Origin: Bacteroidota bacterium
GTDB taxonomy: Bacteria; Bacteroidota; Bacteroidia; Chitinophagales; Chitinophagaceae
NCBI GenBank assembly: GCA_028876495.1
Contig: JAGWRO010000090.1
Span: 92,557 to 139,201, forward strand
Reading direction: 5' to 3'
DNA length: 46,645 nt
The position numbers were made by a program, and so were the translations under genes. The notes below the pieces were generated by a model. The model saw nothing but the letters and a program-made list of their open reading frames with translations. It searched no databases and was not told the origin of the DNA. The stretch's first letter is position 1, and every line of letters starts with the position of its first letter. This document shows positions 6,601-37,246 of the stretch, piece by piece.

Positions 6601-8175
6601 TTAATCCATTACGTAAGCTTCCACTCCATGCTCATACATATCAAGGCCTCCAGGATTTGTTTCACCTTCCGGAGCAACTCTCAATCTCCATGGATGAGGC
6701 AATTTATTAATTACATACATTAAAATAAGTGCAACACTAAATGTAGCAATGGTGATAGTAAGGCTACCTACTATTTGTGCTTTCAAAATTTGTGTGCCGC
6801 CTCCATAAAAGAAACCAGTAACAGGAGATGAATTATCAGCACCTGTAGGACCTGTAGCACCATATTTTCCACAAGCAAATAATCCCAATGACAAAGTACC
6901 CCAAATTCCTGCAAATCCATGAACTGGAACAGCCCCAATAGGATCGTCAATGCGAAGCCATTCAAGAAATATTATTCCGAAATATACTATTAAACCGGCT
7001 ATTAATCCCAGCATTACTGCACCAAAAGGAGAAACCCAATAACATGGACAGGTAATGGCAACCAGCCCTGCCAGAAATCCATTGGTAGTAAAGCCCACAT
7101 CGAATTTATTGCTTTTACCAAACCAAAGTGCAGCATACATTGCCCCAATACCCCCTGCACATGCGGCAAGTGTTGTATTGGCAGCAACTCTGCCTATACC
7201 TTGCATATCTACTGCGGATAAAGTGCTACCTGGATTGAAACCGTACCAGCCAAACCACAAAATAAAACCTCCTACAACTGCAAGATTTAAATTATGAGCA
7301 GGTGGCATTCCTCCACCGTCCCGCTTAAATACTCTCCCCAAACGAGGCCCGAGTACAATAGCACCTGCTAATGAAACCATGCCTCCAATTGTATGAACCA
7401 CTGTGGAACCAGCAAAATCTCTGAACCCGGTTCCTAAAGACGGAAACAAATGCCCTGGTGTACCCATTAATGCTAAAAAACCATCGGGTCCCCAGGCCCA
7501 ATGTCCGATAATAGGATATATAAATCCTGTTACTGCAATACTATAAAGTATATCACCCCTGAAACCTGTACGGCCGATCATAGCGCCGGAAGTTACTGTT
7601 GAAGTGGTATCAGCAAATGCAAACTGAAATATCCAATGTGCAAGAACAGGAACTCCTGTTGCAGCATATGTGTCGGGGATATTTTGCAGGAAGAACCAGT
7701 TCTCTTTTACTCCTCCGGCTAAATCTCCACCTCCCCATCCGATAAAGCCATTTCCCTGACCAAACATAAAGGCGTAACCCACAGCCCAAAATAAAATACC
7801 GCAAATAGCTGTATCAAAAACACATTCCATTAAAATGTTAACGGATTCCTTTTTGCGTGCAAAGCCTGCTTCAAGAAAAGTAAATCCAGGTTGCATTCCA
7901 AATACTAAAAATGCAGCCACTAATGTCCAAATAGTATTGGCAGTATTCATAAGGGTTGTTTCATGTACAGTATATTTATCCTGTGCATGTGCAGAAATAC
8001 CGCCAAGGATAATTGGCAAAAAGCCCATTGCTATTAAAACGATAGCTAACCCAATCATTTTACCGGCAAATTTAAAGCCTGCAATGCGCCATTTTTCCGA
8101 AGTCGTCAATTCCACCATTACATCAGATGAGTTGTCTCCTTTCCCAAAGAGACTCATTAATTTTTTAAGTAGCAT
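6601..8175 (-). CDS. amt: Ammonium transporter, Amt family (second channel)
   Basis: Inner-membrane Amt/Mep/Rh channel that takes up ammonium. The 524 residues are longer than the usual 400-450 because of an N-terminal extension of about 75 residues with a hydrophobic segment (about 41-62). The conserved core follows: the twin pore histidines lie in FAGSTVVHTIGG and in VPVHGFAGIWGTLS, and FGWYGFNPGS is an Amt signature. The C-terminus (GLDMYEHGVEAYVMD) differs in type from that of the other channel at 9441-10901. It is the last gene of a leftward group and lies 42 bases after the porin-like gene. No glnK/PII gene is present in the window. Confidence 0.95.
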   Translation of the reverse strand: MLLKKLMSLFGKGDNSSDVMVELTTSEKWRIAGFKFAGKMIGLAIVLIAMGFLPIILGGISAHAQDKYTVHETTLMNTANTIWTLVAAFLVFGMQPGFTFLEAGFARKKESVNILMECVFDTAICGILFWAVGYAFMFGQGNGFIGWGGGDLAGGVKENWFFLQNIPDTYAATGVPVLAHWIFQFAFADTTSTVTSGAMIGRTGFRGDILYSIAVTGFIYPIIGHWAWGPDGFLALMGTPGHLFPSLGTGFRDFAGSTVVHTIGGMVSLAGAIVLGPRLGRVFKRDGGGMPPAHNLNLAVVGGFILWFGWYGFNPGSTLSAVDMQGIGRVAANTTLAACAGGIGAMYAALWFGKSNKFDVGFTTNGFLAGLVAITCPCYWVSPFGAVMLGLIAGLIVYFGIIFLEWLRIDDPIGAVPVHGFAGIWGTLSLGLFACGKYGATGPTGADNSSPVTGFFYGGGTQILKAQIVGSLTITIATFSVALILMYVINKLPHPWRLRVAPEGETNPGGLDMYEHGVEAYVMD

Positions 8176-8217
8176 AAGTTGTGAAGTTTAGTAGATTTAC
8201 AATTTGTTTAGTTTTTC

Positions 8218-9261
8218 TTAAAAGTGGTAGGTAGCAGCAAGGATGCCGGTAAATGTTGATTTGGTTGGCGAAGTATCGTTCTTTTCAAAAACAGGATCTT
8301 TCGCTGCATCTAACCTTAATTCAGGAATGATAGTGAGATTTCCTACTTTGAAATTAGGTGAAAGTGTAACATCGAAAATGCCTGTTGGAGGAGCAGAAAC
8401 TACCGCTTTTTTGTTGTCAAAGTATTCAGTTCTCAGCGTGATACCGAATGTGCTTGTTGGATCAACAGTAAAGTATAAAGCCGATCCCCACCAGCTGTTG
8501 CTTGAACTGCCTTTAGGTTTTACTGATTGCACAGTACCGTTGTAGCCCAAGGTGAATTTACTGGTTACTGCATCAGTAAGTACTACATCAAATTGAGTAA
8601 CACCAAAGGAACCACCATATGATCCCTGGTAATTTATATAAGCTACAAACTTACCATCTTTAGTTGCTGTACTATACTGGGCTATAGCATATCTTCTCGA
8701 GCCTGCTTCAGCAACCACGTCAGTAGCATTAGCCACGCCAATCATTAAAGCGCTTTTTGCTCCAAGACCAATATCGGCCTTTAAACCAGTGTGAGAGAAC
8801 GGCCCGTAAGAAAACATGTAGTCCATGCTGTAATTGCGGTTGAGATACGCATCCGTTAATTCATAACCAATATGCGTCATCCATTTTCCCATAGTTAGTT
8901 TGAACTTATCGCTGATAGCATAACTTAAATAAACTTGCTTTACTGCAAATAGTGTTGGATGGTTTGGGTCGCCATAAGAAAATTCTTCTGCTCTTGGGCC
9001 AAATCCCAAATCTACAGTAGCACTTGCTTTTCCAAAAGTATGGTCAGCCCTTACGCTGGCCATACCAAGTTGAAATGAATTTTGAGAATTAGTAAAACTG
9101 GTAAAGTTGTTAGTCTTTCCATCGCTCGGGTTAGCGAAGTTATACCTGAAATAAGTGTCTACTGATCCGGTAATGGTTGGAGCTGGAATTGAGTCAGTTT
9201 GTGCATGGGCAGAATTAATTGTGCCCACAATGACACATGATGTCAAAATTTTTCTTAACAT
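8218..9261 (-). CDS. Outer-membrane beta-barrel porin-like protein between two ammonium channels
   Basis: A 347-residue secreted protein. Residues 1-20 form a signal peptide ending in SAHA before QTDS. The rest alternates polar and aromatic residues like a beta-barrel and ends in the C-terminal phenylalanine typical of outer-membrane proteins (AATYHF). It resembles the OmpL-like barrel families (BBP2 type) found in Bacteroidota, which I judge from overall pattern only. Its position between two ammonium channels suggests it lets ammonium or another nitrogen source cross the outer membrane; that is inference. Confidence 0.8.
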   Translation of the reverse strand: MLRKILTSCVIVGTINSAHAQTDSIPAPTITGSVDTYFRYNFANPSDGKTNNFTSFTNSQNSFQLGMASVRADHTFGKASATVDLGFGPRAEEFSYGDPNHPTLFAVKQVYLSYAISDKFKLTMGKWMTHIGYELTDAYLNRNYSMDYMFSYGPFSHTGLKADIGLGAKSALMIGVANATDVVAEAGSRRYAIAQYSTATKDGKFVAYINYQGSYGGSFGVTQFDVVLTDAVTSKFTLGYNGTVQSVKPKGSSSNSWWGSALYFTVDPTSTFGITLRTEYFDNKKAVVSAPPTGIFDVTLSPNFKVGNLTIIPELRLDAAKDPVFEKNDTSPTKSTFTGILAATYHF

Positions 9262-9440
9262 TGTTCTAGAATTAAAGGTTAAAAATGGAAAGGGTGTAGC
9301 AGTTAACTTTTCACAGAAGTTAATATTATAGCTATTCCCTTTCTTGTTTATTATATATTAGAGTCATAAGTTTTGTAATGTCTGTTTATAATTTAGATGC
9401 AAGAATATTTATGATTGTTGTGTTTCTTATTTTACTTTTA

Positions 9441-10901
9441 TTAGTTTTTAAGAAAAGTGTCATTCCGTTTTGATAATACAGAAGCCTGTATAGCTTTTTC
9501 ATTATGCTGTGGCGAATCAAATGGTAATTCTTGTTCAATAACAGCCCCCGGGTTCCTTAATAATAAAGTTCCCTGTAAATATTTTTCATCGTGCTGTGAT
9601 GCATCTAATCCCATTTCTTCATCTGCCTCGCTTACCCTCATTGGCATTACCCAATTGATGAATTTGAAAATTCCATAAGAAACAGAAAAACTATAAGCCA
9701 CTACAATTCCCAAACCTTTTAATTGTGTAAAAAAGAAAGCAGGGTTACCGTAAAATAATCCGTCGTTTCCACCTGCATTAATGGTTTTTGTAGCAAAAAC
9801 TCCTGTAAGGATCATCCCAACAATACCACCAATACCATGGCATGGAAAAACATCTAAAGTATCGTCTAAAGGAGATTTTGATTTGTAATAAACGGCAAGG
9901 TTAGAAATTATTGCAGCTACCACGCCGATAAAAATGCTTTGTGGAATTGCAACAAAACCAGAAGCAGGTGTAATGGCAACAAGACCGACAACGGCTCCAA
10001 TACAAAAACCAAGAACCGAAGGTTTTTTGCCTCTTAATAAATCAAAAAACATCCATGCCAGCCCTGCAGCAGCAGCAGCTGTATTAGTAGTGGCGAAAGC
10101 GGAAACAGCTAAAGAGTTAGCAGCTAATGCAGAACCTGCATTGAAGCCAAACCACCCAAACCAAAGTAAACCGGTGCCGATAAGTACGTAGGGGATATTT
10201 GCAGGTGGAATTTCTTTGTGTTCCCTATGAACTTTTCTTCTTTTTAAAACAATCGCTCCTGCAAGTGCAGCACAACCTGCAGAAATATGAACAACAGTTC
10301 CTCCTGCAAAATCCAGTATGCCCATTTTAAACAAAAATCCTTTTGGATTCCATGTCCAATGGGCGATAGGTGCATATACCAAAAGACTAAACATAACTAT
10401 AAAAAGGACGTATGAAGAAAAACGGGTTCTTTCAGCAACTGCTCCTACAACAAGGCTAGGAGTTATTATGGCAAACATTAATTGAAATAAGGCAAATAAT
10501 AAAAGTGGTATTGAAGGTGCCAGGCTCCATGGAGCACCTGAATTTACCCCTTTAAAAAAAAGATGCGTAAGCGGGTTTCCAATAAAGCCTCCAATTGAAT
10601 CTCCAAAAGCCAAACTATATCCTACGGTGATCCACAAAATGCTCACGATGCCTGCGGCTACAAAACTTTTGATCATGGTGGAGAGAACATTTTTTCTATG
10701 AACCATTCCTCCATAAAAAAAAGCAAGACCCGGTGTCATCAAAAAAACCAACGCAGTAGCAACAAGTATCCATGTAATATCTGCTGTATTATATTTGCCT
10801 GCATCATTGAAATTTGCTAATGATGGGACAAATAATGCCAGAATTGCAACAAGTACTAAAATTAGGAAAGGAGCCGCTCTGTTTAAATTAATATTTTTCA
10901 T
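9441..10901 (-). CDS. amtB: Ammonium transporter AmtB type (first channel)
   Basis: Ammonium channel of 486 residues with about eleven membrane spans after an N-terminal hydrophobic leader. Pore histidines lie in FAGGTVVHISAG and FPCHGIGGIVG; the Amt signature FGWFGFNAGSALA is intact. The cytoplasmic tail includes MRVSEADEEMGLDASQHDEKY, the region where GlnK binds in the well-studied family members, followed by about 40 further residues of unknown role. Those contain DSPQHNEKA, reminiscent of the preceding SQHDEK segment. It has a good promoter just upstream and is probably the first gene of the amtB-porin-amt group. Confidence 0.95.
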   Translation of the reverse strand: MKNINLNRAAPFLILVLVAILALFVPSLANFNDAGKYNTADITWILVATALVFLMTPGLAFFYGGMVHRKNVLSTMIKSFVAAGIVSILWITVGYSLAFGDSIGGFIGNPLTHLFFKGVNSGAPWSLAPSIPLLLFALFQLMFAIITPSLVVGAVAERTRFSSYVLFIVMFSLLVYAPIAHWTWNPKGFLFKMGILDFAGGTVVHISAGCAALAGAIVLKRRKVHREHKEIPPANIPYVLIGTGLLWFGWFGFNAGSALAANSLAVSAFATTNTAAAAAGLAWMFFDLLRGKKPSVLGFCIGAVVGLVAITPASGFVAIPQSIFIGVVAAIISNLAVYYKSKSPLDDTLDVFPCHGIGGIVGMILTGVFATKTINAGGNDGLFYGNPAFFFTQLKGLGIVVAYSFSVSYGIFKFINWVMPMRVSEADEEMGLDASQHDEKYLQGTLLLRNPGAVIEQELPFDSPQHNEKAIQASVLSKRNDTFLKN

Positions 10902-21700: not shown

Positions 21701-21829
21701 TGTTTTAGGTTTTGCCATTTAAAAATAAATAAGAATTTATTGTGAAATCACTTTTCTTTTTTCAAAATTCCAAAAGAAAAAAAGTTTATTCTTTAACTTG
21801 TGTGCCATTCTCAAAAACTATTTATTCTG

Positions 21830-24829
21830 ATGAAAAGAACCCTGATTACTTTTTTTCTGCTAACCTCTTTAAAATTCATTGCTTTATCTCAGACAACAAA
21901 CACTGCTGCAAAACATTGGGCCGATAGTGTTTTTAATTCTTTGAATGATGATCAAAGAATTGCCCAGTTGATGATTTTGCGCGAAAGTAGTTATACCCCT
22001 AACGGGCCTGTTTATTACGATTCAGCAATTGTCGATGCGATTCAAAAATATAATATTGGAGGCATTTGTCTTTTCCAGGGAACACCTGTGAAGCAAGCGA
22101 ATTTTATAAATTATTTTCAAAGTATTGCCAAAACGCCTTTGATGGTAACCATGGATGCGGAATGGGGAGTGGGTATGCGTTTGGATAGCGTAATGCCCCT
22201 TAATCATCAAATGATGATTGGAGCCATTAATGATTCATCCTTGGTTTATCAATATGGGAAATTGGTAGGCCGGCATTGCAAAAGGATGGGAATACAGGTA
22301 GATTTTGCGCCTGTAGTAGATATTAATAATAACCCTGATAACCCGGTGATCAACGACCGTTCTTTTGGGGAAGATAAATATAAAGTAGCGCGATACGGAA
22401 TTGCGTATATGAAAGGCTTGCAGGATGAAGGAGTAATGGCTTGTGCCAAACATTTTCCGGGCCATGGTGATGTAAATGTAGATTCTCATCTTGATCTTCC
22501 GGTTATCAATAAATCAATGGCTCAATTGGATTCTTTGGAATTATATCCATTTAAAAGGATGTTTAAAGCGGGCGTGGCAAGCGTGATGATTGCTCATCTT
22601 TATATTCCTGCGATAGATAATACACCCAATACTGCCACCTCTTTATCAAAGAAAAATGTTACCGGTTTATTACGTGAAAAGCTTGGGTTTAACGGGCTTA
22701 CTTTTACCGATGCTTTGGGTATGAAAGGAGTTGCAAAATTTTTCCCCGGGGGGCAGATAGCTGCCCAATCGTTGATTGCGGGAAATGATATGCTTTCGCT
22801 TCCTGAAGATGTGCCCACAGCCATTGCCAAAATCAGGGAAGCAATTGACAGTAATAAATTGAGCTGGAATGATATTTATGAAAAGTGCAAAAAAGTGCTT
22901 GAATATAAATATAGGTATGGGGTGGCAAAAGTGCAACCAATAAACACCGAAAATCTTACAGAAGATTTGAATAATGGAATTCCGGAAATGAAAAAATTGA
23001 TTGCAGAAAATGCCATCACTATATTAAGTAATAAAGACAAAGAATTTTTTCCGCTTACTGATGAAAACAAAAAGATTGCTTATATCGGTATTGGAATTGA
23101 TAGTGCGAACACTTTTTCTACAAGATTGCAAAAAGATTTGAAAGCCGATGCATTTTATTTTGATTACCAGGAAAATGCTTTAAGGATATTATCTACAGTT
23201 CAGTTGCTTAAAAGCCGTTACAGTGCAGTAGTGATCGGGGTTCATAATTACAACCGTTATCCGGCAAACCAATTCGGCATTAGTAATTATGCATTGGAAA
23301 TCATTAAACAAATTCAACAAAATAATAAAACCATTTTGTTTGATTTTGGAAATCCGTATGCAATCAAAAACTTTTGCATTGCTGATAATTTGGTGGCTTG
23401 TTATGAGGATGATTCTATCACGCAAAATGCGGCTGCAGATATTCTCGAAGGAAAAATTTTGGCCAAAGGAACTTTGCCCGTTACCGTTTGTCCTAAGTAT
23501 AAATATGGAAGTGGGATTTTGCCTAAAAGGATTTTGCCACTTTCAACACCTGATGAGGAAGGGCTTAACGGTTTGCAAATGACGCATGATATTGATTCAA
23601 TTGCCCTTGCCGGAATTGAAGGACAAGCTTATCCTGGATGCGTGGTTTTAATTGCACGGCACGGAAAGATTGTATTTGAAAAAGCTTACGGAACATACAA
23701 TTATGATACACCGGAGCCTGTTAACCTGAATTCCATTTATGATATGGCATCGGTAACCAAAATTTGTGCTACGACGTTGGGCGTTATGAAATTATATGAC
23801 CAGGGAAAACTCAGTCTCGATAAAACGTTGGGCACTTACCTTCCGTGGACTAGAAAAAGTGATAAAAAGAACCTGAATATTGAAAAAATATTACTTCACC
23901 AGGCACGGCTGGTTCCTGATGTTGTTTTCTACAAAAAAACGGTTGATCCGATTACAGGAGAGCCTTTGCCCCGATATTTCAGGCCCGATTCCTCCAGGAG
24001 ATTTAATGTAAGAGTTGCGCAGCATTTGTATTTGCGAAGAGATTACGCGGACTCAATGAATCAAAGTATTCTTGACAGCAAACTTCTTCCGAAAGAAAAA
24101 TATGTTTATAGCGATAATGATTTTATTTTTATGGCAGATGTAGTTCGCGCTATTTCAGGATTGAGAATTGATAAGTATGCCGATAAATATTTTTACAAAC
24201 CCATGGGGCTTCATTCCATAGGTTTTAATCCAAGAAACCGGTTCGATACCAATTTGGTTGCGCCCACAGAATTGGATCAATATTTTAGATTTCAACATTT
24301 ACATGCAGACGTTCATGATGAGGGAAGTGCCATGTTTGGTGGTGATGCAGGACATGCAGGCTTGTTCAGCAATGCAGAAGATATCGGAGCGATACTTCAA
24401 ATGTTTTTAAACGGTGGAACTTTCAAGGGCAAACGATATATAAAATCTTCTACCTTGAATTTATTTACTGCCTACAATTCAAGCATCAGCAGGCGCGGTA
24501 TCGCTTTTGATAAGCCTCAAAAAGATAATTACACCACTACAGATCCTCATCCTTATCCTTCAAGATTTGCATCGCCACTCACGTTTGGACACACAGGATA
24601 CACGGGAACCGCCATTTGGGTTGACCCGAAATATGATTTGGTTTACGTATTTTTAAGCAATCGTGTCGATCCGATAAGAAGTGATAATCTATATAAATTA
24701 AATATAAGAGGATCTATTGAAGATGCAGTTTACAAAGCAATGGTTCCGGCAATTCCTGAAGTATTGAAAAGAGAGGAGTTTGAACAACAACAGAAATCAA
24801 AGCAAGAGGAATTGGAGAACAATCAGTAA
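21830..24829 (+). CDS. Secreted GH3 glycosidase fused to a serine beta-lactamase-like domain
   Basis: A 999-residue two-enzyme protein. I start at ATG 21830 because it opens a clean signal peptide (about 20 residues, ending IALSQ); an in-frame GTG at 21800 would bury it. Residues 30-370 are a glycoside hydrolase family 3 domain of the NagZ (beta-N-acetylhexosaminidase) kind: catalytic loop KHFPGHGDVNVDSH at 207-220 and nucleophile Asp294 in TFTDALGMKG. Residues 400-560 form a GH3 C-terminal-like domain. Residues 580-999 are a class C beta-lactamase/DD-peptidase-type fold with SVTK at 641-644, a YSDND motif and HTGYTG. It probably trims cell-wall material in the periplasm. Confidence 0.92.
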   Translation: MKRTLITFFLLTSLKFIALSQTTNTAAKHWADSVFNSLNDDQRIAQLMILRESSYTPNGPVYYDSAIVDAIQKYNIGGICLFQGTPVKQANFINYFQSIAKTPLMVTMDAEWGVGMRLDSVMPLNHQMMIGAINDSSLVYQYGKLVGRHCKRMGIQVDFAPVVDINNNPDNPVINDRSFGEDKYKVARYGIAYMKGLQDEGVMACAKHFPGHGDVNVDSHLDLPVINKSMAQLDSLELYPFKRMFKAGVASVMIAHLYIPAIDNTPNTATSLSKKNVTGLLREKLGFNGLTFTDALGMKGVAKFFPGGQIAAQSLIAGNDMLSLPEDVPTAIAKIREAIDSNKLSWNDIYEKCKKVLEYKYRYGVAKVQPINTENLTEDLNNGIPEMKKLIAENAITILSNKDKEFFPLTDENKKIAYIGIGIDSANTFSTRLQKDLKADAFYFDYQENALRILSTVQLLKSRYSAVVIGVHNYNRYPANQFGISNYALEIIKQIQQNNKTILFDFGNPYAIKNFCIADNLVACYEDDSITQNAAADILEGKILAKGTLPVTVCPKYKYGSGILPKRILPLSTPDEEGLNGLQMTHDIDSIALAGIEGQAYPGCVVLIARHGKIVFEKAYGTYNYDTPEPVNLNSIYDMASVTKICATTLGVMKLYDQGKLSLDKTLGTYLPWTRKSDKKNLNIEKILLHQARLVPDVVFYKKTVDPITGEPLPRYFRPDSSRRFNVRVAQHLYLRRDYADSMNQSILDSKLLPKEKYVYSDNDFIFMADVVRAISGLRIDKYADKYFYKPMGLHSIGFNPRNRFDTNLVAPTELDQYFRFQHLHADVHDEGSAMFGGDAGHAGLFSNAEDIGAILQMFLNGGTFKGKRYIKSSTLNLFTAYNSSISRRGIAFDKPQKDNYTTTDPHPYPSRFASPLTFGHTGYTGTAIWVDPKYDLVYVFLSNRVDPIRSDNLYKLNIRGSIEDAVYKAMVPAIPEVLKREEFEQQQKSKQEELENNQ

Positions 24830-32635: not shown

Positions 32636-33001
32636 TTAATACTGATTGGTGCTTAGTAAAACCAACGTACATGCATGTTGCGTGGCAATGTTCTTCTCTT
32701 TGGCGAGGCGCTCGAGTTCTTCATTTTCTGCACCGGGATTGAAAATGATTCGTTTTGGTTTTTGCTCAAAAATATAATTGTAGTAAGCTTTTTGATTGTT
32801 GGCGTTCAGGTAGAGAGTAACAGTATCGAGATCTTCAATAGGCTTTTTTTCTGAAACTACTTCTACATCTTTTACTTTACCTGTATGGGTGCCTATAGCC
32901 ACAACATCGTGCCCGTTTTCGCGAAGTTTATGAATCGCTAAATAACTATATCGGGCTGGATTGGTAGTAGCACCTAAAACCAATGTCATTTTGTTTTTCA
33001 T
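32636..33001 (-). CDS. CoA-binding domain protein
   Basis: A 121-residue single-domain Rossmann-like protein of the CoA-binding (YccU) family: LVLGATTNPARYSYLAIHKL near the N-terminus is the nucleotide loop, and the C-terminal segment has RIIFNPGAENEELERLAKE and Cys111 in QHACTLVLL. The ATG at 33001 overlaps the stop of the DCC gene by 4 bases (ATGA); an ATG at 32989 is an alternative. It is the last gene of the polyketide/prenyltransferase operon by position, but family members are widely scattered, so its part in that pathway is doubtful. Confidence 0.88.
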   Translation of the reverse strand: MKNKMTLVLGATTNPARYSYLAIHKLRENGHDVVAIGTHTGKVKDVEVVSEKKPIEDLDTVTLYLNANNQKAYYNYIFEQKPKRIIFNPGAENEELERLAKEKNIATQHACTLVLLSTNQY

Positions 33002-33408
33002 ATATTTTCATTTAAAAACCTTGATCGTACCTCGGGTGTTGGTATCATGCAAACTTCTTTTTTGCCAAACCACCGATATCTGTTTTTGGCGATCCAATTA
33101 TAGATCCCGTCTCTTAAAAATTTTGGAACAATAATAAAGCCATACATTAATGGCCATAAACTATTTAAATACCTGCAAACTTTTAATGCTGCAGTTGACC
33201 TGGTATAACTTCTGCCGTTTTCTATAAAAACAAAAGACTTCATATCTACAGATGGCAAATCATAAGAAGCGAGCAATGCATGTGCTTCGGCACTTTGCAA
33301 AGGAGCAAATTTTAAGGTAGATTTTTTATCTCTTTTTATTGCAAAATTTACAGCGCTGTTGCAGAAATTGCAAACGCCATCAAATAATATTACCCGCTGC
33401 TGAGACAT
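32998..33408 (-). CDS. DCC family thiol-disulfide oxidoreductase-like protein
   Basis: A 136-residue DUF393/DCC protein with the defining DGVCNFC motif (Asp10, Cys13, Cys16) close to the N-terminus. Further along are KFAPLQSAEAHALL and the FIIVPKFLRDGIYNWIAKNRYRW segment. The two cysteines suggest a thioredoxin-like redox role, but the family's reaction is not established. It starts 12 bases after the stop of the FAD oxidoreductase gene and overlaps the CoA-binding gene by 4 bases, so it is in the operon. Confidence 0.9.
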   Translation of the reverse strand: MSQQRVILFDGVCNFCNSAVNFAIKRDKKSTLKFAPLQSAEAHALLASYDLPSVDMKSFVFIENGRSYTRSTAALKVCRYLNSLWPLMYGFIIVPKFLRDGIYNWIAKNRYRWFGKKEVCMIPTPEVRSRFLNENI

Positions 33409-33420
33409 ATTGCAAATTTA

Positions 33421-34590
33421 CTAAAACTCTTTCCCATGCGTTGATTTTACCAATTGATTAATGATAAAAGGAAAAGGTTTTAAGCTTCGGATAAATAAAT
33501 TGGTAACGAATTCTCTTCCAAAAAATGACTGAATAATTCTTCCATTCTTTAAACGTGAGCCGAATTCTTTTTGCCATTTTTCGCAATAGTTGTTTTCCAT
33601 TTTTTCTCGGCTAATGTTGCTTTTGAAAAAAGAATCAATATTTTCAAAAGCAATTTTAGAAGAATGAAAAGCCATACTCATGCCGTTTCCACAAAGAGGT
33701 GTTATCATTCCGGCAGCATCTCCCAACATCAGCACGTGATCTGCAACCTGGTTTTTTTTATCAAAGCTGATCTGTGAAATAGTAACAGGCTCATGAAATA
33801 AAAATTCAGATTCAGTAAATATTTTTTTAAGAAATGGATTTTTAAACAAAACATTTTCTTCCATTTCCTTAATTGAATTGTGGTTGTCTTTTAAATTTTT
33901 AGCAGTAGTAAGGTAACACAAACAATATTCCTCATTTTCAACTTTTGAAATACCGCAATAACCGTTTTTGAAATTATGAAGCTCGATAGTGTCTGACAGA
34001 ACATCTGCTCTTACGTGATATTTTACACCGATGTAGTTATTTAATTTTCCCGGTTTTTGTTGTACAAAATCCCGCTTCCATTTTACATCAAGATTGCTTC
34101 TTTTTCCAAAAGCTCCCGCCACTATTTTAGAAGAAACTTCACCACTGTTATATTTTATACAAAAGGTTTCGGTATCAAAATTTACTTCAGTTACTTTTGA
34201 TTCTTCCAAAAGAGTAACGCCATTTTCAATCGCTATTTCTTTCAATTTGTTATCGAGCAAATACCGGCTGATACCAAAACCACCCAAATCAAGTTTCGTG
34301 TGGATTGCGTTTCCATTCGGAGAGGAAACAACTAAATTTTTTATAAGAGGCAAATGCAGATCAGAAAGATTCAATCCTAGACTTTCTATAAAATGCCAGC
34401 TTTCCATGCTGATGTATTCCCCACAAACTTTATGAATCGGATACTTTTCTTTTTCGAACAAGATGGTTTTATATCCTGCTTTTGCAAGTAGAATAGAAAG
34501 TGAAAGCCCCGCCAGGCCGCCACCGACAATAGCTGCAGTAAAGTAAGAAATTTCTTCTTTTTTTATTTTATCGTTTAAAGCTTCAGCCAT
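33421..34590 (-). CDS. FAD-dependent oxidoreductase of the polyketide operon
   Basis: A 389-residue flavoprotein related to geranylgeranyl reductases and aromatic hydroxylases. The FAD-binding GxGxxG is in AAIVGGGLAGLSLS near the N-terminus, the family CGEY motif follows the first strand, and the second FAD motif reads VLMLGDAAGMITPLCGNGMS around 275-294. I start at ATG 34590, which overlaps the methyltransferase stop in ATGGCTGA; a TTG 24 bases upstream is less likely. In this operon it probably oxidises or hydroxylates the ring made by the type III polyketide synthase, or reduces a prenyl chain; which one is undecided. Confidence 0.88.
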   Translation of the reverse strand: MAEALNDKIKKEEISYFTAAIVGGGLAGLSLSILLAKAGYKTILFEKEKYPIHKVCGEYISMESWHFIESLGLNLSDLHLPLIKNLVVSSPNGNAIHTKLDLGGFGISRYLLDNKLKEIAIENGVTLLEESKVTEVNFDTETFCIKYNSGEVSSKIVAGAFGKRSNLDVKWKRDFVQQKPGKLNNYIGVKYHVRADVLSDTIELHNFKNGYCGISKVENEEYCLCYLTTAKNLKDNHNSIKEMEENVLFKNPFLKKIFTESEFLFHEPVTISQISFDKKNQVADHVLMLGDAAGMITPLCGNGMSMAFHSSKIAFENIDSFFKSNISREKMENNYCEKWQKEFGSRLKNGRIIQSFFGREFVTNLFIRSLKPFPFIINQLVKSTHGKEF

Positions 34591-35293
34591 GTTGTGCAGA
34601 ATTGAAAACAACAATTAAATACCTGAAAGCCCATTTCCATTTTATTGAATAATTTTTAACTCCTGCTTTTTGAAAAATATTTTTCCAGTCACTTTTTTTA
34701 AATCCTCTTAACACAGAAATCGGCGCATCATTTTTTACCAGGTAAGATTTTGAAAATACTCTTATGGCGATTTTTATAAAATGATAAGCTAAAGGATACC
34801 GGTGCAAATCATTAATAAAAAAACCAATATTGGAATTACTTTTCATCCATTTTATCATTTCCACTAATTCATCGTCGGTAAAATGGTGGCAAAAAAGAGA
34901 AGAGAAAATGATATCAGGTTTATTGTTTTCAAAGGTTACTTCTTTGTAATCAGAAACAATAAAAGCTACCTTTTCAATCTTTGAATTTTCTTTTGCAAAA
35001 GCAATGCAATTCTTGTTGATATCAATACCAGTAAAGCTTGCATCAATATTATGTCTTGTACAATAGGGAAAGATGGCACTTAAATTATCACCGCCGCCAC
35101 AACCGATTTCACAAACCGAAACTTCTTTTTTTTCTTTCAATAATTCTTTAAATCCTTTAATTGTGATTGAATGACCTCCGAGTTTCGAATTAATAAACTC
35201 AAGTTCTTTCATATTCAAAGCAATATCCGCAAAGGCGATATCATTTTGATCAAGTATTTCTTTTTGTAAGGAGCGCTTTTTATAATCAATCAT
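34583..35293 (-). CDS. SAM-dependent methyltransferase of the polyketide operon
   Basis: A 236-residue class I methyltransferase. SAM-binding motif I is CEIGCGGGDNLSAIF near 61-75, the acidic residue after strand 2 is in FTGIDINKNCIAFA, and IIFSSLFCHHFTDDELVEMI is the motif IV region. No membrane segment. It overlaps the polyketide synthase gene by 8 bases and the oxidoreductase gene by 8. Its position between them suggests methylation of the phenolic product, as O- or C-methyltransferases do in other type III polyketide operons. Confidence 0.88.
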   Translation of the reverse strand: MIDYKKRSLQKEILDQNDIAFADIALNMKELEFINSKLGGHSITIKGFKELLKEKKEVSVCEIGCGGGDNLSAIFPYCTRHNIDASFTGIDINKNCIAFAKENSKIEKVAFIVSDYKEVTFENNKPDIIFSSLFCHHFTDDELVEMIKWMKSNSNIGFFINDLHRYPLAYHFIKIAIRVFSKSYLVKNDAPISVLRGFKKSDWKNIFQKAGVKNYSIKWKWAFRYLIVVFNSAQHG

Positions 35294-36383
35294 TCGATAA
35301 AATGAATGTTTCCATTGTTAATCCGGGACCAAATGCAGCGCCAAAAATATTGGCCTTTTTATCTTTCTCATGTTCCAAAGAATTCATGATTTCTTTTAGC
35401 ACAAATAAAATCGTGGGCGAAGACATATTGCCATAATCATTCAAAACTTTATATGAAAATTCTAAATCATTTGCAGAAACAATAGTGCATTTTTCAATTG
35501 AAGTTAAAATTCTTTTTCCGCCCGGATGAATACACCAGTGTGAAATGTGGTCCTCATTCATATGGGCATTTTGCAAAGCATTTTGCAGAAGGTGATTAAA
35601 ATCCTGTTCAATTAATTCGGGCACATAGCCGGAAAGTTGCATCAAAAAGCCGGAAGAAGAAAGCTGCCAGCTCATGTGCTCTTTGCCATTAAAACCCACT
35701 TCGCTGTAAAAACTTTTAATCTTTAATCCTTCTGACTTTGCATCGTCATGCATAACTAAAATAGCCGCCGATCCATCGCCGAATAAAAGACTTGCAGCAA
35801 TATTATCTGCAGTAGTTTCTTTTTGAAAATGCAGGGTACAAAGCTCTGTACACACAATAACCACTTTTGCATTGGTGTCACTTTTGCAAAATGAATCAGC
35901 GAGTTTCATTGCATGAATGGCGGCGTAACAACCCATAAAATTGATAGAAGTGCGGAAAATATTTTTAGGCAAATTCATCAATTCCATTATTTGCAAATCC
36001 AAACCCGGAGCGCTCATTCCGGTACAGCTTACTGTTATCAAATGCGTAATTTCTTCCTTTTTTATTTTTTGACCGATACATTTTTCTACCGCAGTTACAG
36101 ATAAGCCAGGAGCTGTTTTGTTGTACCAATCCATTCTCAGTTCCAGGTTCGGAAAGGGTTCTAAATTTTCAGAAGCCGGATAGAATTGCCATTCGCCGGC
36201 ATCAAGACTATAATCGGGCAAAACAGAATACCTTTTTTTGATCGCGCTTTGATGATATAAAAATTTAAGTTTCCGTTTTTCAACCTCATCCATGGCGTAA
36301 ACGTTCTGCATAAAATGCAGAATATCATTTTGTTCATGCCTGTAAGCCGGAAGTGCGGTTGATATGGAAACAATTTTACTCAA
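35286..36383 (-). CDS. Type III polyketide synthase (chalcone synthase-like)
   Basis: A 365-residue homodimeric ketosynthase that condenses malonyl-CoA units on an acyl starter and cyclises the chain to a phloroglucinol, resorcinol or pyrone. The catalytic triad is present: Cys152 in NFMGCYAAIHAMK, His286 in WCIHPGGKRIL, and Asn319 in YGNMSSPTILFVL. The N-terminal segment with SCTGMSAPGLDL is also typical. Its ATG overlaps the stop of the UbiA gene by 4 bases. The starter and number of extensions cannot be read from these residues. Confidence 0.95.
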   Translation of the reverse strand: MSKIVSISTALPAYRHEQNDILHFMQNVYAMDEVEKRKLKFLYHQSAIKKRYSVLPDYSLDAGEWQFYPASENLEPFPNLELRMDWYNKTAPGLSVTAVEKCIGQKIKKEEITHLITVSCTGMSAPGLDLQIMELMNLPKNIFRTSINFMGCYAAIHAMKLADSFCKSDTNAKVVIVCTELCTLHFQKETTADNIAASLLFGDGSAAILVMHDDAKSEGLKIKSFYSEVGFNGKEHMSWQLSSSGFLMQLSGYVPELIEQDFNHLLQNALQNAHMNEDHISHWCIHPGGKRILTSIEKCTIVSANDLEFSYKVLNDYGNMSSPTILFVLKEIMNSLEHEKDKKANIFGAAFGPGLTMETFILSND

Positions 36384-37246
36384 ATGAATTTTAAAATTAA
36401 GAGTGTGATAAATGCCAGGTTTGTAAACACAGAAGCGATTACATTCATTCGCATGGTATTCTTAAAATTTGCTTCACTGTTACTCTTTAAAACTTTTGCA
36501 AACCAGTTAAAAAAATATACGATAATTGGAAGCATAAAGATTTGAAGAATAATAAATTTGAAAATTGCTGCCTTTAAATAAAAATACCAACCTAATGTAA
36601 CAAAAGCCAAAGCATATACAATGCCAGTAAAAATAAAAGTGCCCTTATAGCCCAATTTATAGCTGATCGTGATTACACCATCTTCGTAATCCTCCTTATG
36701 CTGGTAAATTTGTGTAAGCGGATAAAAACCCCCGATGAGCAAGCTAGAAGCTATCAATGCCAAAACGGGAATTTGTAAAGAAAGGTTGCTGCTGGTTCCT
36801 TGATACACTAAAAAAAAAGTTACTGCTCCCTGGAAGATAATTACGATTAGATAACCGATGACAGGATATTTTTTTAGCCGGATCTTTCTATAACTATAAG
36901 CCCTTGAAGCCAGAATGTAGAAAAAAATTCCTATAGAAAAGATGGGCGAAATTGTGAAACTTAACAAAAGCGCCGCCGCATCCATAAAAAGTGTGGTATA
37001 AAACAAAAGCTTTGCAGGCTGCATCGGATTTTGTATGCCACCAACCGGAGTTGTGTCGCGGTCCATATAACTATTGTAACCATTGCTGGCAGGGTAAACC
37101 AATAAATGCAAAATAACGAATACCAGCAGCGCATTCATCCAATTGATATTTTTTACCTGGCTTACCGCAAACCAATACACGGGCATTAAAAAAAAAGAGA
37201 AATGAAAGCGAAGAAGTTGTAAAGTGGATTGAATGTTTTTATTCAC
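36380..37246 (-). CDS. UbiA family prenyltransferase, first gene of the polyketide operon
   Basis: A 288-residue membrane enzyme with about eight or nine hydrophobic spans. It has the first prenyl-diphosphate motif as NGYNSYMDRD (Asn58, Asp62, Asp64) and the second as YQHKEDYEDG near 180-190. UbiA enzymes attach prenyl chains to aromatic or lipid acceptors. The start is GTG at 37246; no ATG is available before the first motif. It begins about 45 bases after the terminator of the pyruvate dehydrogenase E2 gene and opens a chain of overlapping genes, so the aromatic acceptor is probably the polyketide made downstream. Confidence 0.9.
   Translation of the reverse strand: MNKNIQSTLQLLRFHFSFFLMPVYWFAVSQVKNINWMNALLVFVILHLLVYPASNGYNSYMDRDTTPVGGIQNPMQPAKLLFYTTLFMDAAALLLSFTISPIFSIGIFFYILASRAYSYRKIRLKKYPVIGYLIVIIFQGAVTFFLVYQGTSSNLSLQIPVLALIASSLLIGGFYPLTQIYQHKEDYEDGVITISYKLGYKGTFIFTGIVYALAFVTLGWYFYLKAAIFKFIILQIFMLPIIVYFFNWFAKVLKSNSEANFKNTMRMNVIASVFTNLAFITLLILKFI

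Follow-up and report, generated by a model that had tools for sequence, protein, structure and literature searches.

Introduction

The srsABC operon of Streptomyces griseus consists of a trio of genes, for a type III polyketide synthase (PKS), a methyltransferase and an FAD oxidoreductase, while in the agq cluster of Actinoplanes missouriensis, the PKS gene is joined by three others, which encode a UbiA-like enzyme, a methyltransferase and a flavin monooxygenase. Awakawa et al. (2011, ChemBioChem 12:439) are said to have described agqABCD of A. missouriensis together with alkyl-O-dihydrogeranyl-methoxyhydroquinones. According to the excerpts of the literature that we have used, the type III PKS AgqA produces alkylresorcinols, which are then prenylated and hydroxylated (PMC10896814), and agqA-D are credited with the same alkyl-O-dihydrogeranyl-methoxyhydroquinones (PMC7692728).

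Excerpts of this kind also describe the los cluster of Micromonospora endolithica, where genes for UbiA, a methyltransferase, an acyl-CoA dehydrogenase and a PKS lie in a row (PMC7587189), and a type III PKS region of Gephyromycinifex, where the genes for UbiA, the PKS, an isoprenylcysteine carboxyl methyltransferase (ICMT) and an FAD oxygenase lie together (PMC8779670). Decorated phenolic lipids are attributed, likewise in excerpt, to operons of a PKS, a methyltransferase and an oxidoreductase, namely hidABC of the hierridins and a planctomycete operon (PMC10896814). In the Bacteroidota, a UbiA protein (Ubi-297) is described as part of a conserved operon, the ebo cluster (PMC9235831, in part).

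Here, we have analysed positions 32636..37246 of a 46,645-nt stretch of contig JAGWRO010000090.1 (the window), where a UbiA gene, a type III PKS gene, a methyltransferase gene and a flavoenzyme gene adjoin. The initial annotation had regarded this exact four-gene set as being without a characterised precedent; in the literature as excerpted above, the agq cluster is such a precedent, and the two other actinobacterial sets are similar to it in containing UbiA. Like agq, the locus combines one type III PKS gene with three more, for the same four activities; unlike agq, it belongs to the Bacteroidota and not to the actinobacteria, and the comparison of the two is one of described gene roles. As far as the excerpts go, los and the Gephyromycinifex region share with it adjoining UbiA, methyltransferase, oxidoreductase and type III PKS genes, but both are actinobacterial, the oxidoreductase of los being annotated as an acyl-CoA dehydrogenase and the methyltransferase of Gephyromycinifex being of the isoprenylcysteine carboxyl type. 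The trio of PKS, methyltransferase and FAD enzyme is common to the srsABC, hidABC and planctomycete operons and to the Bacteroidota block, which differs from these three-gene operons, as described, in having a UbiA gene. Several UbiA-less Bacteroidota loci resemble the srsABC-type trio.

By analogy with the agq, los and Gephyromycinifex gene sets, the Bacteroidota system would work like a known kind, and its four genes look like an agq-type pathway for prenylated alkylresorcinols. New is the Bacteroidota version of this pathway, with altered acidic motifs in its UbiA protein and strong genetic coupling. We have found no description of the Bacteroidota set in the titles and abstract openings among the matches listed, subscription journals and supplements lying outside this scope, and the main text of a survey of Bacteroidetes natural products does not contain any of the terms T3PKS, type III, resorcinol, prenyl, UbiA and phenolic lipid.

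Organisation of the locus

The region holds six open reading frames (ORFs) on the minus strand, all leftward; rechecking of the coordinates has confirmed the junctions listed in the initial annotation, i.e. from the UbiA end onward, overlaps of 4, 8 and 8 bases, a gap of 12 bases and an overlap of 4 bases. The first gene (37246-36380, minus strand, GTG start) encodes a UbiA-superfamily prenyltransferase of 288 residues, with a Pfam UbiA match of 47.8 bits and the motifs NSxxDxD and YPxTQxYQxxxD; it is followed on the same strand by the type III PKS gene (36383-35286, TTG start, 365 residues; Pfam chalcone/stilbene synthase N and C domains), by the gene of a SAM-dependent methyltransferase (35293-34583, 236 residues; Pfam Methyltransf_31/25), which is part of the conserved block, and by that of an FAD-dependent oxidoreductase of the geranylgeranyl-reductase/monooxygenase superfamily (34590-33421, 389 residues from the ATG; Pfam FAD-binding), for which an alternative TTG, 24 bases upstream of the ATG, would give 397 residues. 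The TTG start of the PKS and the GTG start of UbiA are matched in the closest relative (L037), where the ORFs, taken from the first start after a stop, open with the same residues.

The last two minus-strand genes are a DCC1-like thiol-disulfide oxidoreductase gene (33408-32998, 136 residues; Pfam DCC1-like) and a CoA-binding gene (33001-32636, 121 residues; Pfam CoA_binding_2). In a sample of 40 family loci, with PKS identity from 76 down to about 30 %, the former is present once (L037) and the latter is close by in 20 loci, frequently with intervening genes; moreover, of three further congeneric genomes, two (G134, G198) lack the operon and yet keep the two genes as a pair (L270, L272). The unit is therefore one of four genes, and the DCC1-like gene and the CoA-binding gene are each probably a neighbour outside the pathway. 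On these grounds we have rejected a pathway of six genes, the last two having the look of passengers, and the initial view of the operon as one pathway stands for UbiA, PKS, methyltransferase and FAD enzyme, while it falls for the two genes that persist without them.

A terminator-like hairpin followed by a T run (37315-37292, minus strand; 10-pair stem, pattern match only) separates the UbiA gene from the pdhC-like gene that precedes it, so that the operon may start between these two genes. The pdhC-like gene is also near 15 of the 40 family loci; this suggests that the arrangement is an old one and that the block has since been lost repeatedly, loss in preference to gain being our interpretation.

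Proposed pathway and the tailoring enzymes

Our preferred reading, which we hold to be probable though well short of assured, is that the four genes make up an Agq-type operon whose product is a prenylated phenolic lipid. The PKS would take a long-chain acyl starter out of general fatty-acid metabolism, extend it with malonyl-CoA and cyclise the chain to an alkylresorcinol (or a resorcylic acid or pyrone); the methyltransferase would methylate and the flavoenzyme would hydroxylate the ring, in either order, towards an alkyl methoxy-hydroquinone or quinone; and the membrane-bound UbiA protein would attach an isoprenyl group, donated by an allylic diphosphate, to a ring carbon or oxygen. The end product would be an amphiphilic membrane lipid, most likely a methylated, hydroxylated alkylphenol that bears a prenyl group.

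The initial annotation had described intact active-site motifs throughout, and this holds for the PKS triad, for the SAM motif of the methyltransferase (EIGCGGG) and for the two motifs of the FAD enzyme (GGGLAG and GDAAG), the last three read from the translations; it does not hold for UbiA, where the residues T66, Y175 and Q182 are non-acidic. The methyltransferase is predicted to act by O- or C-methylation of the phenol. With regard to the FAD enzyme, its match to the geranylgeranyl reductase family TIGR02032 (103.4 bits) lies below the cut-off of 158.8, outside that family, and among solved structures, flavin halogenases and a 4-hydroxybenzoate monooxygenase come closest to it. The enzyme is retained beside a PKS in five loci whose genomes are without this UbiA, which points to oxidation of the ring as its probable role, i.e. 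that of a ring hydroxylase; the reduction of a prenyl chain, which the name of the superfamily would suggest, is less likely for the same reason.

Starter choice of the polyketide synthase

All 28 homologues in the alignment share the catalytic triad C152-H286-N319, and the protein belongs to the type III PKS. Residues T121, A125 and C182 align to positions of Pks18, with three residues in common that presumably line its long-chain tunnel. Loading of a long-chain acyl starter is predicted for the PKS. Against the preferred reading count the presence of these Pks18-type residues in PKS rows that have no UbiA beside them (L118, L123, L125, L131) and the absence of an acyl-loading gene from the operon block.

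The foremost alternative, which we consider rather unlikely, is that the PKS makes a small aromatic compound (phloroglucinol, resorcinol or DPA-like), to which UbiA would add a long polyprenyl chain, resulting in a polyketide-derived quinone with the isoprenoid as its lipid tail, which could function alongside menaquinone. It draws on DpgA (NF042429), the NCBIfam model that the PKS matches best, and on the presence in the operon of the set used for tailoring ubiquinone, i.e. a membrane UbiA, a methyltransferase and a flavin hydroxylase. However, the DpgA match, at 147.3 bits, is far under the cut-off of 425, outside the DpgA family, the PKS has the Pks18 residues, and the source genome already has an MqnP-like enzyme; in addition, 138 of 244 sampled family genomes have neither the UbiA nor the PKS gene, and the product would therefore be no essential carrier.

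The UbiA protein

The UbiA fold spans nearly the full length of the operon protein, which belongs to the UbiA superfamily. The canonical motifs of this superfamily are Asp-rich, of the NDxxDxxxD and DxxxD type; they are absent from the operon protein, with NSxxDxD and YQxxxD in their place. In the alignment with the Aeropyrum UbiA structure 4od4 and with the MqnP-like paralogue encoded by the same genome, three acidic positions have changed, to T66, Y175 and Q182, while N58, D62, D64 and D186 are retained, as are two basic residues, R123 and K125. Across 55 family UbiA sequences, Y175, Q182, N58, S59, D62, D64 and D186 are invariant, and so are Y117, S118, R123 and K125; position 66 is non-acidic in all 20 operon UbiA rows listed. 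The operon UbiA proteins are, by their sequences, a subfamily with an altered acidic motif, in which the loss of three acidic positions could reflect a different donor or a different chemistry.

The replaced positions, two of them fixed as Y175 and Q182 throughout the subfamily, lend themselves to a second alternative, in which UbiA does not prenylate the polyketide and instead uses another donor, cyclises a terpene, or serves as a scaffold or in transport. We regard this as quite unlikely: eight further residues of the site (N58, D62, D64, D186, Y117, S118, R123 and K125) are invariant in the 55 rows, so that the site is conserved and not decayed, and the fold covers almost the entire protein.

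The source genome has six UbiA genes including that of the operon, and the other five, all separate, encode an MqnP-like enzyme, heme O synthase, a DGGGP-synthase-like protein, EboC and one further paralogue. The possibility that the operon gene is the genome's sole menaquinone or heme enzyme, raised by the initial annotation, is thus contradicted, and the MqnP-like and CyoE enzymes fall apart from the operon UbiA proteins in the tree; roles in menaquinone (MenA/MqnP) or heme (CyoE) synthesis have been rejected. The role of EboC has been rejected as well: the genome's own EboC is a different gene (407.7 bits), the EboC/Ubi-297 model NF035940 is not among the matches of the operon UbiA at E up to 0.01, and the UbiA of the ebo cluster, as described in part of its source, is EboC. 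On plasmids, no UbiA homologues were found at E 0.01.

Conservation and co-occurrence of the four genes

In 35 of the 40 family loci UbiA adjoins the PKS, mostly in the order UbiA-PKS-methyltransferase-FAD enzyme; among these, L063-L065 have a divergent UbiA and L062 is without the FAD enzyme. The other five (L066-L069, L075) are UbiA-less. A scan of named relatives with the UbiA alignment, one genome per species, gave at least 594 candidate stretches, 577 of them confirmed, of which the best 80 are close relatives, with records from Ginsengibacter, Niastella, Segetibacter, Ferruginibacter, Flavitalea and Puia and many Chitinophagaceae MAGs. In all of these 80 best-matching loci the PKS gene is directly downstream of UbiA, with an overlap or a spacing of no more than 9 bases in 68 of them (first-start ORFs), and in 71 all four genes are in order, bearing out the expectation that they stay together across genera; eight of the nine incomplete loci run off a contig end, and the ninth (L222) has other genes after the PKS.

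In the family sample of 244 genomes, 103 have both PKS and UbiA, two have the PKS alone (G062, G069) and one has UbiA alone (G165). The PKS search matched 139 genomes, of which 105 were counted, namely those at E 2e-73 or better plus three with a fragmented gene (G030, G033 and G208). Excluded were 14 genomes with divergent PKS-like matches only, at E about 1e-44 to 1e-13 (G001, G005, G006, G044, G075, G082, G089, G101, G105, G159, G166, G174, G177 and G218), none of which is UbiA-positive, and a further 20 genomes with matches only at E about 1e-5 to 1e-3. Of the 103 genomes with the pair, 102 have its genes next to each other, no more than 500 bases apart, the exception being G144, where they are on two contigs; adjacency peculiar to the source genome, which would have spoken against the initial annotation, is thereby contradicted. 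By the 244-genome counts, the association of UbiA with the PKS is beyond chance; Fisher's test gives 7e-66, a value that, with related genomes, is a description and not a probability. The pairwise distances of the four proteins correlate across 69 loci (r 0.44 to 0.76), a weak result that lacks a control gene and is not counted as support. The four genes are a single conserved, co-inherited unit in this family.

Across the phylum (392 genomes; thresholds of E up to 1e-20 for PKS-like matches and up to 1e-25 for UbiA), 179 genomes have a PKS-like match and 61 have UbiA, all 61 within the 179, and in 41 of the 61 the two genes are not neighbours. The 26 best UbiA genomes fall within the 27 best PKS genomes, the 27th (G553) having a weaker UbiA; the genes are within 1 kb in 20 of these 26 and both present but apart in six. 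The remaining 35 UbiA genomes are all in one family, f24, whose UbiA is a more remote member (E 1e-34 to 1e-45), with similar motifs in the four that were inspected, and by the match positions listed is beside the PKS in none; 11 of the 46 PKS genomes of f24 are without UbiA at this threshold, and in the inspected loci (L118, L119, L122) the PKS-adjacent methyltransferase (66-84 bits) and FAD enzyme (28-37 bits) are weak matches, so that the complete four-gene set is not in evidence there. There is good support for co-selection of UbiA and the PKS. An assembly of unrelated genes by chance or by position alone, for which the two downstream genes might serve as an example of neighbours carried along, is hardly credible against these neighbourhood and co-occurrence counts and the retention of both genes even where they are not neighbours.

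Implications

If the operon does specify a prenylated phenolic lipid, about two fifths of the sampled family genomes (103 of 244) carry a pathway for a probable meroterpenoid-like membrane lipid, and the gene set offers a testable link from ubiA and pks to a phenolic lipid. A bolder proposal, improbable as it stands, is that the operon would yield a polyketide-derived isoprenylated hydroquinone or quinone, which would serve the Bacteroidota under particular conditions as a membrane redox lipid in addition to menaquinone, and that it would be built by a UbiA subfamily with an unusual metal site that prenylates a type III PKS product. In plants, phenolic meroterpenoids are made by the logic of a PKS combined with UbiA, and the Bacteroidota operon would be a bacterial counterpart to it.

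Other genes of the window and relatives of the operon genes

In the window itself, a BBP2-type porin gene is located between two ammonium transporter genes (6601-10901), and a fusion of 1009 aa (21800-24829) joins a glycoside hydrolase family 3 domain to a serine hydrolase domain of the beta-lactamase type. In a same-genus genome that lacks the operon, the DCC and CoA-binding genes apparently form a single fused ORF (locus L270, 7592-8356).

Homologues of the FAD enzyme, with 41-44 % identity, are borne by plasmids of Bernardetia and Hymenobacter (L256, L257); no annotated PKS occurs near either homologue, and on the Hymenobacter plasmid an isonitrile synthase gene is located close by. A distant member of the operon's UbiA subfamily, carrying the motifs NSWWDKDEG and YPVSQxYQTxED, is found in family f24, away from the PKS; it is flanked by the same two other genes in all four loci inspected (L251-L254).

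Type III PKS at the comparison loci

At L135, L137, L141, L142, L143 and L279, a different, divergent type III PKS adjoins a gene for a small membrane protein (160-180 aa) that by eye is isoprenylcysteine methyltransferase-like, a pairing that resembles bpsAB.

At L136, L138, L139, L140 and L144, the FAD-methyltransferase-type III PKS trio is present, UbiA is absent, and the trio adjoins members of gene clusters D7-D10, which by eye are putative ketosynthase, FabZ-like, SDR and PPTase genes; not every one of these occurs at each locus. Such loci may represent a second system for phenolic lipids, one that carries a dedicated fatty-acid set.
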